Assembly (NCBI RefSeq): GCF_000417875.1
Contig: NW_006920890.1
Coordinates: 1 to 61,741, forward strand
Source: Pseudozyma flocculosa PF-1
Lineage: Eukaryota; Basidiomycota; Ustilaginomycetes; Ustilaginales; Ustilaginaceae
Direction of reading: 5' to 3'
Length of the DNA stretch: 61,741 bases
Shown: positions 16,993-26,029 of the stretch, piece by piece
How the letters are laid out: every line of letters begins with the position of its first letter
Position numbering within the stretch: the first letter of the stretch is position 1
Program-made: the position numbers and the translations under genes
Notes under the pieces: generated by a model
What the model saw: the letters and a program-made list of their open reading frames with translations, nothing else
Databases searched by the model: none
What the model was told of the DNA's origin: nothing

Positions 16993-18419
16993 TCAATCGC
17001 CCTCGTCGAGGTCATTTCCGGTGCCGAGGACCGATCCTTCCCTTTCGAGCATCTGTGTGGCAAGCTGGAAGCCCTCGAGTTCGCCATCTTGCCTCTCTGC
17101 AATGTCCTCGGATGGTTCCCGCATCGAGGCGGACTGGTCTGGCCCGGGCAGGGTTGGCATCGGGGCGGGCGTGCCAGCCTCGGTGGCGGGTGTAAGGCCC
17201 CTGAATAGCGGTGTCGAGCCGCGTGCCAGGCTGGCATTTCGGCTGAACCGAGCGGACGGCTCCACTGACGTGAAGCGGCTCTGGGTCGAAGCGGCGCGCC
17301 CGTTGCGGCTGCTGGACGCCAGAGCCCCCGCGGCGACGGGAGCGACGGAGAGCTGGCGCCGCTCTTCGGTCTTTTTCTCGCCAAAGAGGTCGGGATGGTC
17401 GGAGATGTAGCGCTTTGTCGGCTCGACGACGAGGACGAGCAGCTTGCCAAAGATGCGGAAGCCGGCGTACTTGACCGACAGCCTGGGCTTCATCTTTTCT
17501 TCGTCGTCCTGGGTGATTTCAATGGCGTCGTTGTGGCCGGGTGAGTCGGCGAGACTCGCATCCTCGGCCTCGTCCTTGATCTGTACGGGCTCGTTGAGCC
17601 GACGCCGCTTGCTGCGCCTGGGCGCAGGCGCCTGGCCGTCGGGTTCGTCGTCGTAGACCGAGCCTCCGCGAAAGAGGGCTTCGACGCCTTGTTGGCCTGC
17701 GCTCTCGTCCTCATCGGACTCGTGCGGCAAGCGGGCGGGCTCTGCTGCGGGTCCGCGAGCGGGAGGCGGGCGAGGAGCGGAAGGTTCGACGAAGCCATCG
17801 TCGTCATCGTCGTCATCGACGTTTATGGGTGCGCTGGTGGCAGGTTCTGGCTTGACGGCGGCGAATTCGGCGGCGCTCTGTGGCGCGTGGGGGTTGCTGC
17901 TTCTGTGGGGGATGGGTGCGTGGACGTTGCCAGCTTCATCCTCGACCTTGACCTCGGAGAGCGACGGGTCCTGTGGGAACACGAGCGACTTTTCCTGGAG
18001 CAGCAGGCAGGCGGCGAGCCGAGAGTGACGGGGCGGAGGGGAAAGAGGCGGTGTGAGCTGACTTATGCGCGCGCAAGGATGATGGGGATAGGAGAGGGCG
18101 GGCGCACCTTGAGCAGAACGGCATGGCGGTCGTCCATTTTCCTGAAAAAGTAGGCCACCTGCCAGTCTTTTTCGCTGTAGACGTCGACTTTTTCCTTTTT
18201 GCTCATGTTTGCGATTGCGCCCTGCTTGTCTGCCTCTCTGCGCAGCTTTGGCATGATGCGCGACTTGAGGACGGCGAGGAGCATCTTGAGTATGTGCGGG
18301 TTGGCGTTGAACCAGTCGACGTGGCGGTGGTCGAGATAGAGGATGGTCTGGAGCACGGCGTAGGGCGAGGCACGGAGGTAGAAGACATTGCGCTGGGTGA
18401 ACTTGGACATGGACGACAT
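16993..18419 (-). CDS. unrecognised protein, likely nuclear
   Basis: Two exons, complement(16993..17994, 18108..18419), join in phase at AAG|GAA with a GTGCGC donor: 437 aa. I cannot name the family. The first ~105 residues look like a folded, conserved module rich in aromatic and hydrophobic residues (FYLRASPYAVLQTILYLDHR, KDWQVAYFFRKMDDRHAVLL). The middle is disordered: acidic runs (DDDDDDDG), Pro-rich, with a basic NLS-like RRSKRRRL at about residue 235. A second compact block near residue 275 reads KYAGFRIFGKLLVLVVEP, followed by a Ser/Arg-rich tail. Two islands joined by a charged, NLS-bearing linker suggest a nuclear scaffold or chromatin factor (inference). Divergent from the peptidase/PIG-H gene. 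Confidence 0.72.
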
Positions 18420-18832
18420 GGCGGCGACGGGCGTGGGTGTGTGGGCAGGTGGGGCGTGGTGCTGGATTTCTCGCTTGCCCGCGAATGCCACGGGTGTGCG
18501 CGGGAAGAGGATGGTGACGAGGAGACGTGGTGGTGGGGCAAAGGGGAAGGACGACGGGCGTACGACGAGAATCCAACATGGAGCGGCGTTGCCATCATTC
18601 CATCCATCCTCAGAGAGGGCGCATGCCTCCACCTCTGCTCAGCCCAACCTCGGAAGTCGGGTCAGCCAGAAGAAGCATCCATGCACGCAGACCAACAGCC
18701 GCGCGTTTGCAGTCACGGAACGCCGCCTTCCGTCTTGCCAGTTGGGGTCGCATCCTGAAAGCTGGCCCACCACCACCGCCACCACCACCACCACCACCAC
18801 CATCCCCGCGCCCCAGCACACCCTCGCACGCC
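18420..18832. other. divergent promoter region with CCA repeat
   Basis: Intergenic. Just upstream of the peptidase/PIG-H ATG lies a CCA/ACC triplet run (about 18767-18802). No gene seen. Confidence 0.5.
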
Positions 18833-21800
18833 ATGTCAAAGATGCCCGGCGCACAGGCCAAGACCGTCGCGCCCTACGGCACCTGGGACTCGCCCATCTC
18901 CACAGACAGCCTCGCACAGAAGCGCATCAGCTTCGGCGACCTCATCGTCGTCCCAGCCAACGACGACAAACCCGACGACCAACCCGAACTCATCTTTGTC
19001 GAAAACAGGCCACAGGAAAGGGGCAGGGCAGCCCTCGTACACACCACAGGCGGCGGTTCCATCGACGGCGCCCGCGACCTCACTGCGGGCAACCACAACG
19101 CCCGCTCCGGCGTCCACGAGTACGGCGGCGGCGCCGCAGCCCGTCTCGCAGACGGCTCCTTCCTCTTCACAGACTACAACCCCAAATCCTTCGACGTACT
19201 CAGAACCAGCCTCGACACCCAGCCGCACGTCGTCACCCCAGGTGAGCCCAGCCTCGTCCCTCTGCCGCGCTAGTACCAGCTCGACGGCATGACGTCCCGC
19301 TAACCTTATCCTGGTCTCGTGCTCCCCTTGGCCTTTTGCCCTCCCTCCGGTCGACACAGAAAACGCCGCTCACCGCTTTGCCGACTTTGGATCGCACCCG
19401 ACCGACCCCAACCTGGCGCTCGCAATCCTCGAAGACCACACCATCGATGAACCCAGCAAGGTCATCAACAGCCTCGTGTGCATCGACCTGTCAACCACGC
19501 CCGCCACCATCCACACACTGCGCGCCGGAAGGCAGGGTTCCCGCGACGCTACGACGAAGCCCGACGACGGCTCCGACCGCGACTTTTACACCTTCCCACG
19601 CTTCTCGCCAAACGGGAGGTACGTCGCCTGGATCTCGTGGCTCCATCCAAGCATGCCCTGGTGGGGAACCGAGCTCTGGATCGCCCACTTTCACCGGGAC
19701 GGTGACGGCGCGCCCACGCTCTCCCACGCCCAATCGGTCCGCGTCGGGCCCCAGGGCAAGGACGAGGCCCTGCAGCAGCCGGTCTGGGCGATTCCCCGCG
19801 ATCCGCTGCAGAAGTCCTCGGATCTGCTCTTCACCAGCGACGCCACCAACTTCAGCAACCTCTACAGCGTCCACGTCGACGGTGGCGAAGGCGACGAGGC
19901 TCAGCAGCGACTCAGCGTGTCCGAACCCAAGGCCATTCTGCCCGAGCCCGTCAAGAGAGACTTCAGCCCGCCTTGCTGGACCCTCAACAACTCGTCCTTC
20001 GTGCCACTGACCCCCGACCTCCTGGTAGTCACCCTGACAAAGGGCGCCAAGGACGCCATCGGCCTCATCAACCTCCGCAAGCCCCGCGTCATCCAGCTCG
20101 ACAGTCCCTTTGTCGCCGTCTCGCAGCTGCGTCGCTTGACCGCCACGTCCTTCGCTCTGGTCGTCACGCGCGACGACGAGCCCTCGACGCTGGTCACGGT
20201 CGACCTGCGCGGTCTTGCGGCCAGCGGCTACAAGGTGACCGACAGCAACATCCGGGTCATCAAGAGGAGCAGCGACATTGTCTTCGACGGCACAATCTCG
20301 AAGGACCTTCTCAGCGTTGGCGAGGAGATCGAGTTCCCGACCGAGCTGCCGGACGGTACGCCCTCAACCTCGCACGCCGTCATCTTCCCGCCCAAGAACC
20401 CGCGCTACACGGCACCTGCGGGCACCAGCCCACCGTGCATCTTCACCATCCACGGCGGCCCGACGAGCTCGGCACACTCCGGTCTCGCACTGGCAAACCA
20501 GTTCTGGACGTCGCGCGGCTGGATGGTGTGCTCTGTCAACTACGGAGGCAGCACCGGCTACGGGCGCGACTTCATGGACCGACTCTCGGGTCAGTGGGGC
20601 GTCGTCGACGTGCAGGACTGCATCTCTGCAGCCGAATACCTCGGATCCCCCGCGAGCGGCAGCAGCAAGCGTTTCAGCGAACTGTCGGCTGCCGAGGCCG
20701 ATGCGGTCCGCAGGCAGCTCAAGCAGGCACGTCGGGACCGAGCGTCTCTGACCGAGACCAAGACGAGCAATGGCTCGACGCAGGTCACTCTGCGAAACAC
20801 GGCTAGCACATGGAGCTGGATCGATCTGCTGGTCGCTGCAGGTGTGGCAACCTCCTTTGCGACTTCGCTGATCTCGCCGCTCGGTCGTCAGGTGGCTGCG
20901 GGCGGCGCGCTGGTATGGCTGTGGAACAAGCTGCGCCGCGTCGACAGCCAGACCCTCACCGTGATCCCATCCGTCGGGCTGCAGATCTCCACCACCCGAG
21001 GTCTCTCGCTGCCGTTTGCCCCGAGCCTACGCCTCTTCACGACCAAGAGCAGCCGCCTGATCCCACGCGACAGGATCCTAGACGTCTACGTGGGCGAAGG
21101 GTTCCGACGCTGGTCCGTCATCGACTACCTTGCCCTCGTCGAAAAGGATGGCAGGAGAGACGACGTCGAGAAGCCGGGCACAAGGGCCGGGAAAGTCGTC
21201 GACCTCTTTTCAGAACTCTCGCCGAGGCTCTCGGTCGTCGAAAAAGTCTATCGGACCATCTACCCGGCCCTCTTTGGCCAACAGGGCAAGGGTCTGGCAG
21301 AGTCGTCGTCGTCGTCGTCCAAGGGCAGGAAGAAGCGGCTGCCGCTGGCCGATCCGAACGCCATTGTCATCTCGGGTGGATCCGTGAGTCCAGCCTGGTC
21401 TGCGGATAACTCGACAACGTCGTTTGTCTGCCACTGACACGCTCTCCCCCTCTTTGGCGATCCTGACACTCGCTGGCACGCAGGCCGGCGGCTACACTGT
21501 GCTCCTCTCGCTCTGCCTGTCGCGGATCTTCTCGTCGGGCACATCGCGGTACGGCGTGGGCGACCTGAAGCTGCTCGCGGCCGACTCGCACAAGTTTGAG
21601 TCGCAGTATCCGTTCAAGCTGATCGGAGGTACGCCAGACGAGGTGCCGGACGTGTACAGGGACAGGTCGCCCATCTACCTCGCCGACCGGATCGAGGCGC
21701 CGCTCCTGGTCCAGCAGGGCACCGAGGACAAGGTCGTACCGCCCAACCAGAGCGAGGTCATTGTCGACAGCATCAGAAAGCGGGGCGGAAGGGTCGAGTA

Positions 21801-22063
21801 CCTCTTGTTCCAAGGCGAGGGCCACGGTGAGTCGAGCAGAAGTCGTAGGCCCGCCCTCGACGCAGAGCAGAAAAAAGGCGCGGCGCATGCTCCCGCAACT
21901 TTCATCCCGATGCTCACTACCCCGTGCTTGGTCCCGTACACGCGCCCCTGTGCCCTCGTCGCCGACAGGCTTCCGATCCGCCGACAACCAGAAGAAATCG
22001 CTGCAGGCCGAGCTGGACTGGTACAACGACGTCTTGCACCTCTCCCCCACCCAGGGCCAGTAG
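18833..22063 (+). CDS. S9 serine peptidase with inserted PIG-H/Gpi15 domain
   Basis: Domain-in-domain protein of 956 aa; exons join(18833..19241, 19360..21383, 21484..21826, 21969..22063). Residues ~1-480 are a propeller-like N-terminal half as in prolyl oligopeptidase-family dipeptidyl/acyl-aminopeptidases. The alpha/beta-hydrolase starts near 490, with the oxyanion HGGP at about 500, then GSTGYGRDF and GQWGVVDVQDCISAAEYL. The chain then enters a ~234-residue insert (about 565-798): a hydrophobic hairpin (~622-665), then a PIG-H domain (~666-776: LTVIPSVGLQIS, RLIPRDRILDVYVGEGFRRW, VIDYLALVEKDG, LSPRLSVVEKVYRTIYPALFG). It returns to the hydrolase at ADPNAIVISGGS|AGGYT. Triad by motif: Ser811, Asp893 (GTEDKVVPP), His925 (GEGHGFR). 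PIG-H is a subunit of GPI-GlcNAc transferase, the first step of GPI anchors. Exon 2 is one open frame, so both domains share one mRNA. Confidence 0.9.
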
Positions 22064-22409: not shown

Positions 22410-25400
22410 CTAGCGGATCGTGCGCTTGCCCATCGTGGAGGTGTTGAAGCTGTCTTCGCCAATCGAGCCGAGCGTACCGGAGCGCGAGGGTGCGATGCCG
22501 TGCGGCCGACCGAGCGGGTTGCCCGGAGTCGGGAGGCTCAGGTTGACAGTGAGGCTGCTCGCTCTCCGTGCCAGGCGGGCGGCAGTGTTGTTGGGCGGTC
22601 CCGAGGCGGTCCGTGAAGCAGCCGGCTGCGGCGGAAGTGGCGAGGCCGAGGTCGACGGTAGAAGGGGCCCGCTCGAGTTGATGCTGCTCACCCTTGCCTT
22701 GCGGCGAACCGGCCCGACACCGCTGCCCGGGCCCGAGAGCGACTGTCGCGAGTAGGGACCTCGGCGCTCGCTGTTGAACTTGGCACCGCTCAGGTTGAGC
22801 GTGCTCGCCGTGGTCGGGAGCGATCGATTGGCTAGCTCGCCGAACGGCTCTCGCGGCGCCGACGCCGCGTCGCTCAAGAAGCCCGGGATGGTAGGTCGTC
22901 CCAGACCCCCCTCAGAACCTTGATCGCCATCGTCGTCCTCTGTCTCCTGCAGAGCGCCGAGCGCCGACGACGAAGACGATTTTGCGGCGGCGCGCTTGGC
23001 GAGGAAGTTGCGGTCAAACATGCCGGCGGCCCGCTTGGCGACCGGCTTGCCAGCTCCATCGCTAGCATCTGCTGCAGCTGGGCTCGCGCTGCTGGTGGCG
23101 CTTCCATAGTCTTCCCAGTCCGTCCCGCTGGAGCTGTCCTCGGCTTCGACATCACTTGCTAGTCGACTAGCGGGCTGTCGGGCCGGTGCGCGGTGCGGCG
23201 GAACCTGGTCACCGACGCCGGCCGACGCTGCCCCGAGACCGGCTGGAGGCAGAGGCGGCGCAGGTGCCAAGGATTCAGCCGACCCAGTTGGCGGGACAGC
23301 TCGCTTTCCCTTGTCGTCGATCGAGCCCTCGCCTGCTTCATCTGCCCAGCGGAAAGCCTTTTTGGCCTGCGGCGCCGGCTCGACAGGGGGCGGTGGCGGC
23401 CTGTTGCCAAGGCCGACGGCGCTGACCCTGCGAAGACCCACGCTGAGCCGTCGGTTCGTCTTGCGGGGGCTGCTTGCGAAGTGCGCTCTCGCGGGTGCAG
23501 CAGTCGCTGGTGGAGCTTGAACGCCCCGTGATGGAGCCGGCTTTGTCGGCGACGATGGAATCACGCGGCTTCCGCCAGGTGCAAGCGAAGCTCGCCGGAC
23601 GCCTGTTCTCGGAGGCCCCGCGGCTCGCGCCGGGGCCGCGACCGATGCGGAACGGAGTCCGGCGACGAGCGCACCAGGCTGCCCGACTCCAGGTTGGGCG
23701 CTCCCAAACGATCTCCGCGCTCGGCGCAGCACGGTAGAGGCGCCTGTCCGCATCGGTCTGCCCGCGACAGATGCCTGCTGAAGGACACCGCTGCCAGCCA
23801 TGTCCGAGATGTCGAGGTTGTTTGCGTCGGCAAGCCCTCTCATCTGAGCTGCGAGCTCGGCGAGCCTAGAGGCTAGCGGTGGTGCGCCGCCTCCCTTGTT
23901 GAGTTCGCCAGTCTCGTATTCGAGCTGGCCGGCGACGTCGCGCAGAGCCACTGTACTCTTGGCCGCTACGGAGACGAGGCGGGCCAGATCTCGCGAGCTG
24001 TCGCGCAGGACTGCCAGCGCCGCGTCGTACTTCGTCTGGGCCCTTGCCGAGTCGAGGACACTCCGGACCGACTCGCCCAGGCTCTTGACGATCTCGGCGG
24101 CCTGGACGTCGAACTTTTGGTTCTGGCTTGCCACCATCAGCAGGCCCCGGTGCATGGTCAGGCTGTTTTCGAGGCCGTCCGCGCCTGCCTTGAGCTCCGG
24201 ACTGCGAATGATGGACTCCTGCCGTTGCAGCAGCTGTCGCAGGATGTTGCGTTCGCCCTCGAGCAGTTCCGCCTCTGAATCGACCTCAATGGTGGGCGAA
24301 GAGCCCTTCCTGGCTTGACAGCCGCCGAGCTCTGCCTCGACCTCATCGAGTCGCCGCCGCAGCTCGATCGAACGCACCTCGGCCGCTGCGATCTGCGCCT
24401 CGAAGCCGGCCTTTTCGCGTACGAGTCTGCGGACGTTTTCCGTCTTGCTCGAGATCTCGTTCTTGACGACGACCAGCTCCTGTGCCGCCTCGGCTCGTTT
24501 CCGCTTCTCTGCCGCAGACTCGTACGAACCCTTTTCTGACAGCTTGCGCTTGAGCTCTGCCACTTCCTCCTTGAGCTGCGCAATCGTCTGGACGTACTGG
24601 GCCACGTGCCTGTCGACGTTGATCATGTTGCGGCTGACCTTGGTGCGGATATTCTTGGCCTGGTTGGCGTACTTGAGGGCGTTGTGCGTCTCCTCGTAGT
24701 GGGCGCTCGAAGGGCTGACGCAGACAATCATGACGGTCTTGCAGTTGCCGCCGAGCGAGAACTTGAGCAGCCGCGTCAGCTTGCTGTTGCGGTACGGCAC
24801 GTGCTTCCGCAGCCCGCCAGACTGGCACAACGCGTTGATGCAGTTGCCCAGGGCGAGGAGCGACTTGTTGATGTTGGCGCCTTCCTTCATCCGCGCACCG
24901 TTGTTGCGCGTCGCCGAGGCTCGTTCTGACCCGGCCAGGTCGATGATGTTGAGCGAGGCGCTGGTCGTCTCGTCGGTCGTGTCGGCGGTGCGTGGCTTCT
25001 GCGTGACGTTGATCTGGAGCACGGCGTGGCTCCTGGAACTGACGGCATTGGCCTCGGTCGGGCTCATGGTGCGCCTGGCGTTGCCCTCCTGGATGATGTC
25101 GAGCACCGTCTCTGGGCTCTCCGGGACCAGCTCCGTGATGCCCACCACCGAGATCTTGTTGTTGGCATCCTCGCGCAGCGCCAGGCCCTGGCCAGGAGGG
25201 GTGGGTTCCGCGCTGAGGAGGTCCCTGATGGTCTCGTTGTAGATCTCGAGGTAAGAGAGGCGGATGTAGACTTCCGAGTCGGCTCTCGCCTCGTCGATGC
25301 GCTGGTAGAGCTCCTTCATGGTGAGGAAGATGAGGCCGGGGTCCTCGGGCGAGCCAGAAATGGTGTGCGTCTTTCCACATCCGGTAGCCTGCGGAACGGC

Positions 25401-26029
25401 GACGTTACGGCACCAGAGCATCCGTCAGCCAGTACTCCACCGCGTATCGAGGGGCACAGGGTGCGGGGAGCGGGCTCGCGAAACGACGGACTCACTCCAT
25501 AAGCAAAGACGCTGGCGTTGTAGCCGTTGAGGATGCCGTCCATGAGCGGCTTGCATGTCTGCTCGAAGACGTCGCCCTGGGTGCAGGCGCTGTTGAAGAC
25601 GCGATCAAAGGCGTAGCGCATGTCCTTGCTGCGCTTGCCGCCGTGGGTGAGGTGGCTCTGCGAGTAGAGCCTGGAGAGCGGGTTGTTGTCTGGCGGATCA
25701 AAGACGAGGACCTGGTCGTCCATGGGCTTGACGATGGGCCGGATGAACCTGCCGCGCGGCATCCCAGTGGCCGGCATGGGGATCAGGGGCTTGGCCGGCG
25801 AGCCGCCCAGCCCTCCGTCGCCGAGAAAGGGAAGGACATTGTCCTCGGGCGCCAGCAGCGCCGCTTCCTTTTCGCTAAAGGGCCTGATCCTCACTGCGTC
25901 GAGGTGAGCAAGGGCAGCGAAAGGATGACATGGGAAAAGGGTGAGCGCTCGCGAACAAGCTGCAGCGGCGCCCCTAGTTCAAGGTCCAAGAAGTGGCTCA
26001 CCGCAGACTGAGATTGAAGATTCCGCCAT
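22410..26029 (-). CDS. KIP3: kinesin-8 (Kip3/KIF18-type) motor
   Basis: Plus-end-directed microtubule motor, in other fungi a length-dependent depolymerase acting in spindle and nuclear positioning. Exons complement(22410..25388, 25496..25893, 26002..26029), 1134 aa; the 28-nt first exon (MAESSISVC) plus VRIRPFSEKE rebuilds the motor start. P-loop GATGCGKT (142-149), with GATGCGKT rather than GQTGSGKT as is usual in kinesin-8; switch I NAVSSRSH (256-263); switch II DLAGSE (292-297). The neck ends at KYANQAKNIRTKV, then predicted coiled coil (AQLKEEVAELKRKL onward). An insert with VLPFLGDGGLGGSPAKP near residue 30 lengthens loop 2, a kinesin-8 feature. The C-terminal ~450 residues are Ser/Ala/Arg-rich and low complexity. 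Intron 2 interrupts the P-loop after its first Gly. Confidence 0.93.

Follow-up and report, generated by a model that had tools for sequence, protein, structure and literature searches.

The gene PFL1_05801 of Pseudozyma flocculosa PF-1 lies at 18833-22063 on the forward strand of the window analysed here, a 61,741-nucleotide stretch (contig NW_006920890.1, positions 1 to 61,741). Its four exons encode a protein of 956 residues (P0001 in our alignments) in which a PIG-H/Gpi15 domain is nested within the catalytic domain of an S9 serine peptidase; the presence of this architecture is confirmed. The first step of glycosylphosphatidylinositol (GPI) anchor synthesis, carried out by GPI-N-acetylglucosaminyltransferase (GPI-GnT), requires PIG-H, whose own role a passage in PMC7125958 calls unclear.

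The spliced product is equal in length to the deposited PFL1_05801 and 100% identical to it over residues 1-564 and 545-830, so that the gene model and sizes given in the initial annotation (a 234-residue insert in a host of about 722 residues) hold. The insert comprises residues 565-798 and, without it, the host (residues 1-564 and 799-956) has 722 residues. The insert lies within a single exon with the frame kept, and its coding composition is close to that of the host (third-position GC of 0.79 in the insert and 0.86 in the host). The parts of the gene, with the evidence for each in brackets, are as follows.

18833-19241 (+), exon 1: N-terminus and first part of the beta-propeller (gene model; P0001 identity over residues 1-564)
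19360-21383 (+), exon 2, complete (gene model)
19360-20390 (+), first part of exon 2: rest of the beta-propeller, to residue 480 (gene model, AlphaFold2 model, superposition on 7c72 and 3azo)
20391-20642 (+), residues 481-564, N-terminal half of the alpha/beta hydrolase, whose last element is helix alphaB, 552-564 (alignment, AlphaFold2 model)
20643-21344 (+), PIG-H insert, residues 565-798, with no Met codon (gene model and translation, alignment with 25 unfused homologues)
20748-20795 (+), strands beta1 and beta2 of the predicted PH-like fold, residues 600-615 (AlphaFold2 models of the full protein and of the insert alone)
20817-20933 (+), predicted two-helix membrane hairpin, residues 623-661 (AlphaFold2 model, hydropathy)
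20940-21305 (+), core of PIG-H, consisting of strands 664-751 and a helix at 760-785, with the Pfam PIG-H match inside (Pfam, AlphaFold2 model, conservation)
21345-21383 (+), point at which the hydrolase resumes, with strand beta5 and the nucleophile elbow, the Ser811 codon (21381-21383) being the last of exon 2 (gene model, alignment)
21484-21826 (+), exon 3: C-terminal part of the hydrolase, with the codons of Asp893 (21727-21729) and His925 (21823-21825) (gene model, alignment)
21969-22063 (+), exon 4: C-terminus and stop (gene model)

Intron 2 directly follows the codon of the catalytic Ser811 and starts some 40 bases 3' of the insert (window 21381-21483), a position that may be left over from the entry of the PIG-H unit into the gene.

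Host, insert and shared junction

The host is matched by the Peptidase_S9 profile (PF00326) in two stretches (7.8e-40, 137.1 bits against a Pfam cut-off of 22.6); NCBIfam gave no above-cut-off match for either P0001 or P0151, an unfused homologue from Sporobolomyces. In the AlphaFold2 model of the full-length protein (predicted template modelling score, pTM, 0.90), an N-terminal beta-propeller is followed by an alpha/beta hydrolase, and the host portion superposes on the puromycin hydrolase 7c72 with 1.8 Å over 622 residues and also matches 3azo. The insert is located between helix alphaB and strand beta5, just ahead of the nucleophile elbow, and the model has the form that the initial annotation had predicted, an intact hydrolase with the PIG-H fold in the loop before the elbow. 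In the general topology of this fold the alphaB-beta5 loop and the catalytic loops lie at opposite sides of the hydrolase sheet, which would account for the enzyme's tolerance of the insert.

The identity of the insert rests on a Pfam match to PIG-H (PF10181) at residues 668-734 (1.7e-14, with 53.8 bits where the cut-off is 25), and PIG-H scored at E<=0.1 in 40 of 41 aligned insert-bearing proteins, P0001 included. Weaker matches to DUF4530 (0.017) and UcrQ (0.18) were dropped because both fall below their Pfam cut-offs. In the AlphaFold2 model the insert adopts a pleckstrin homology (PH)-like fold whose second and third strands are separated by a two-helix hairpin (strands at 600-604 and 610-615, helices at 623-637 and 643-661, further strands from 664), and a model of the insert alone agrees. 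The initial annotation had assigned PIG-H to residues 666-776, and the similarity is indeed found there; its starting point is too late, since strands 600-615 and the hairpin 623-661 belong to the same unit, so that in the models PIG-H accounts for most of the insert. Searches of solved structures by sequence, with the insert and with an insert alignment (A2, built from eight of the 10 fused proteins then known and including their low-complexity linkers), returned no match.

Relatives of the protein were collected with two queries. Residues 545-830 gave 247 matches at E<=1; among the best 120, which were used, 10 (P0001 included) cover 97-100% of the query and the others at most 35%. Host residues 1-564 gave 7813 matches, and 40 of the best 120 carry the insert, at ranks 1-39 and 41. 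With P0009 added there are 41 insert-bearing proteins, of which the 36 that have the insert and both flanks were used for counts; P0009 (partial) and P0149, P0128, P0131 and P0121 (broken or truncated models) were left out. P0128 (Melanopsichium) and P0131 looked like unfused members of the fused clade, a reading that was rejected because their models, like that of the short P0121, stop inside or just after the insert. Automatic domain lists present P0128 and P0131 as unfused, yet the start of the insert is present in both.

The 36 fused proteins, P0001 among them, share a single junction, at which they have 197-277 residues; the 25 unfused homologues aligned with them have 3-6, and length and domain list alone served to judge the remaining 55 of 80 unfused rows. 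PIG-H in 40 of the 41 insert-bearing proteins together with one junction in 36 excludes chance. In a tree of the host alone, from which the insert columns had been removed, the 36 fused rows fall on one side of a single branch (Shimodaira-Hasegawa-like approximate likelihood ratio test, SH-aLRT, 99) and one change is needed. Those fused proteins whose species were checked in the taxonomy come from Ustilaginales and Violaceomycetales (Ustilaginomycetes) and from Exobasidiales, Microstromatales and Georgefischeriales (Exobasidiomycetes), and the unfused homologues among the matches listed include proteins from Sporobolomyces, Mixia, Calocera, Punctularia, Lachnellula and bacteria. These comparisons are most simply read as one insertion in an early ancestor of the Ustilaginomycotina that has been retained since, and by the same evidence the fusion is judged old and fixed. 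Two of the fused rows, P0150 and P0152, form a long-branch pair whose Malassezia-like character is a guess.

The triad Ser811-Asp893-His925 is present in order in every one of the 36 proteins used for counts and in 37 of all 41 insert-bearing proteins, the remaining four being broken or truncated models. The host motifs HEYGGG (35/36, the other protein lacking the region), HPxMP (36/36) and HGGP (34/36) resemble those of unfused relatives. Mean pairwise identity among the 36 is highest in the hydrolase flanks (0.65 for residues 481-564 and 0.61 for the other flank), followed by the C-terminal region of PIG-H (0.51), its core (0.44), the hairpin (0.28) and the linker 777-798 (0.15), and G676, P705, D707, D711, D725, F753 and P758 are conserved in at least 34 of the 36 proteins. 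This pattern suits two constrained domains and a loose linker. Profiles, relatives, the host tree and the structure models thus support the central claim of the initial annotation, that a whole PIG-H unit sits within the S9 catalytic domain with the nucleophile elbow retained.

At the nucleophile elbow, P0003 (P. hubeiensis SY62) reads GGSARG and P0004 (P. hubeiensis) GGSAGG, the difference being at the position of P0001 G813; it is either a sequencing error or a natural variant.

The gene has open reading frames (ORFs) on the opposite strand on either side. Downstream and convergent, the ORF at 22410-25421 (-) encodes a kinesin motor (PF00225, 3.5e-89) and probably has a 5' exon further upstream, because the profile is matched only from position 83. 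Upstream, at 16993-18632 (-), are two overlapping ORFs without a Pfam match at E<=0.001.

Copy number, products and possible function

An exon-by-exon profile search of the P. flocculosa genome (23.0 Mb, 33 contigs) found no second PIG-H, PFL1_05801 being the sole match. The four other subunits searched, PIG-A, GPI2/PIG-C, PIG-P and GPI1/PIG-Q, were each found at one locus; GPI2 and PIG-P each appear as two adjacent matches, with one of the PIG-P matches below the cut-off. The S9 family gave nine matches, representing at least three genes. The unfused Sporobolomyces host P0151 has its best match in this genome at PFL1_05801 and the next gene is only 27% identical, so that no close unfused host was found there. 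Because the only PIG-H match is here and P0151 also matches here best, both halves appear, at the level of sequence, to be single-copy and joined.

We think it probable that the product of the gene is one polypeptide with two functional parts, the sole PIG-H of GPI-GnT and an S9 hydrolase on the cytosolic face of the endoplasmic reticulum (ER). The hairpin would enter the ER membrane from the cytosolic side, so that the insert would begin and end in the cytosol, which would allow the hydrolase to close around it there with its triad intact and to sit on the ER surface beside PIG-A and PIG-Q. We infer in this way the ER localization, the cytosolic placement, membership of the complex, peptidase activity and the joined chain as the active form. 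An AlphaFold3 model of the human complex described in PMC12182360 has PIGH lying partly in the membrane and partly in the cytoplasmic portion, in association with PIGA and PIGQ, and a passage in PMC6559964 states that in yeast deletion of GPI-GnT genes is lethal, save GPI1 and ERI1. As the initial annotation proposed, the gene may couple two unrelated functions, and the joining is physical at the level of the gene.

Several observations weigh against this reading. The exon-by-exon search could miss a second PIG-H strongly split by introns, and none of 14 control genomes yielded PIG-H, hence the search has no positive control for it. Membership of GPI-GnT is deduced from family similarity. When A2 was compared with the protein database for standalone PIG-H relatives, none was found among 7999 candidates at E<=1, a result that is no evidence of absence, as words from the linkers are suspected of having filled the candidate list. 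The hairpin has only moderate hydropathy (1.7 for the window from residue 626), on a par with a buried hydrolase stretch (1.63), it is less conserved than the PIG-H core, and two of 13 proteins checked lack any hairpin window of at least 1.5. Precomputed domain lists give no PIG-H for P0139 and P0146, nor for P0128 and P0131. Finally, the host tree was made by a quick method, is unrooted, has long branches flagged, and considers a single grouping.

A different outcome would follow if one chain were made and then separated, by alternative splicing that treats the insert as an exitron or by proteolysis in the linkers, into free PIG-H and free peptidase; we regard this as improbable. A cut would be tolerated in the low-complexity linker 777-798, and P. 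flocculosa has a basic cluster there, at 793-796. This cluster is not conserved, which led us to reject dibasic cleavage at the C-terminal linker, and cleavage at both ends of the insert would split the hydrolase in two. For splicing, GT and AG dinucleotides within 75 bases of the insert borders were paired in the genomic sequence and the in-frame pairs listed. The pair 20590-21300 has a donor scoring 7 of 9, a value that falls between those of the real introns (8, 6 and 8), but would take out the conserved host helix alphaB as well, and the in-frame pairs that spare alphaB have donors scoring 3-4. No candidate pair has a branch-point match, a weak criterion because such a match is missing from one of the three real introns too. 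The exitron was therefore rejected for want of usable in-frame sites that keep the host fold. A Met ahead of the hairpin is present in 13 of the 36 fused proteins and absent from 23, and in three of the 36 the whole insert is Met-free. The initial annotation had named a separate intact PIG-H gene, with this region spliced from the mRNA, as evidence that would speak against it; the exon-by-exon search of the genome showed no separate gene, pairing of sites within 75 bases of the borders gave no convincing in-frame intron removing just the insert, and a single polypeptide is the best reading of the sequence.

That only one half of the polypeptide still works seems more doubtful again. If the role of PIG-H had been lost, with GPI-GnT lacking this subunit as reported for some eukaryotes, the insert would serve only to anchor the peptidase in the ER membrane; the hairpin, on which such anchoring depends, is nevertheless less conserved than the PIG-H core and C-terminal region, the seven residues listed above are retained, and no other PIG-H was found in a genome where the four other GPI-GnT subunits searched were found. 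We consider this quite unlikely and, by a shade, give still less credence to the hydrolase being a dead scaffold retained only because PIG-H resides in it. An essential part could have carried its host along after the fusion, and the peptidase itself may be dispensable, but the invariant triad, the host motifs shared with unfused relatives and the hydrolase flanks, conserved most of all, argue against decay. Automatic annotation often fuses neighbouring genes, and an artefact of assembly or gene modelling has to be weighed for this reason; its probability is negligible, as the insert lies in one uninterrupted exon and the relatives refute the idea, the same junction recurring in proteins from other genomes.

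Two working parts in one polypeptide thus remains the reading that we favour, and it raises the question of whether a peptidase is now part of the GPI-GnT complex. A speculative and rather doubtful extension is that in Ustilaginomycotina the first step of GPI-anchor synthesis depends on the peptidase, with the GPI-GnT-bound hydrolase sensing cytosolic peptides or acting on a partner and so tuning GPI production. On that view the fusion would act as a regulatory subunit particular to this lineage and would be no passive joining. More broadly, a fungal lineage spanning two classes appears to carry PIG-H, the only one found in the one genome searched, inside an unrelated enzyme. This offers a natural way to learn how much PIG-H can tolerate and which side of the membrane its ends face, as well as a case of nested protein evolution, a predicted membrane hairpin within a PH-like domain within the catalytic domain of a hydrolase, kept across the split between two classes.

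Comparison with known systems

Known PIG-H/Gpi15 proteins are small, separate proteins. The insert resembles them in its above-cut-off Pfam match, its predicted PH-like fold and the membrane hairpin between strands 2 and 3, and differs in being an internal segment of a 956-residue protein. EROS, a chaperone of NOX2, also has a PH-like fold in which two membrane helices separate the second strand from the third, and PMC9767466, which describes it, predicts a similar structure for PIGH; the likeness of PIG-H to EROS is therefore already published as a prediction and is not new. EROS/CYBC1 (PDB 8kei chain D) shows 15% identity and is no GPI-GnT subunit, and the review PMC13296129 yielded no useful passage on its fold. 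The aligned chains of the puromycin-hydrolysing S9 aminopeptidases 7c72 and 3azo, in contrast to the fused protein, have 645 and 661 residues.

The closest comparison is with the orthologues P0122 (Kalmanozyma), P0123 (Moesziomyces), P0003 (P. hubeiensis) and P0005 (U. trichophora), which have the same fusion and the same junction, and which automatic annotation has named after one half only: P0122 as 'GPI-GlcNAc transferase complex, PIG-H component', P0123 as 'dipeptidyl aminopeptidase/acylaminoacyl peptidase', and P0003 and P0005 as 'Dipeptidyl-peptidase V'. In the titles and abstract beginnings of the open PubMed Central literature we found no description of the fused architecture and no functional study of these orthologues, and two surveys of fungal peptidases (PMC8469457 and PMC5567314) do not use the term PIG-H in their main text. 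The statement in the initial annotation that no standard description exists is accordingly correct as far as papers on the architecture are concerned, but not for databases, where the PIG-H domain match is already public and P0122 is named for PIG-H. What is known is thus the domain match in automatic annotation, and what appears to be new is the deep, fixed insertion of a subunit of a membrane complex into the catalytic domain of an enzyme.
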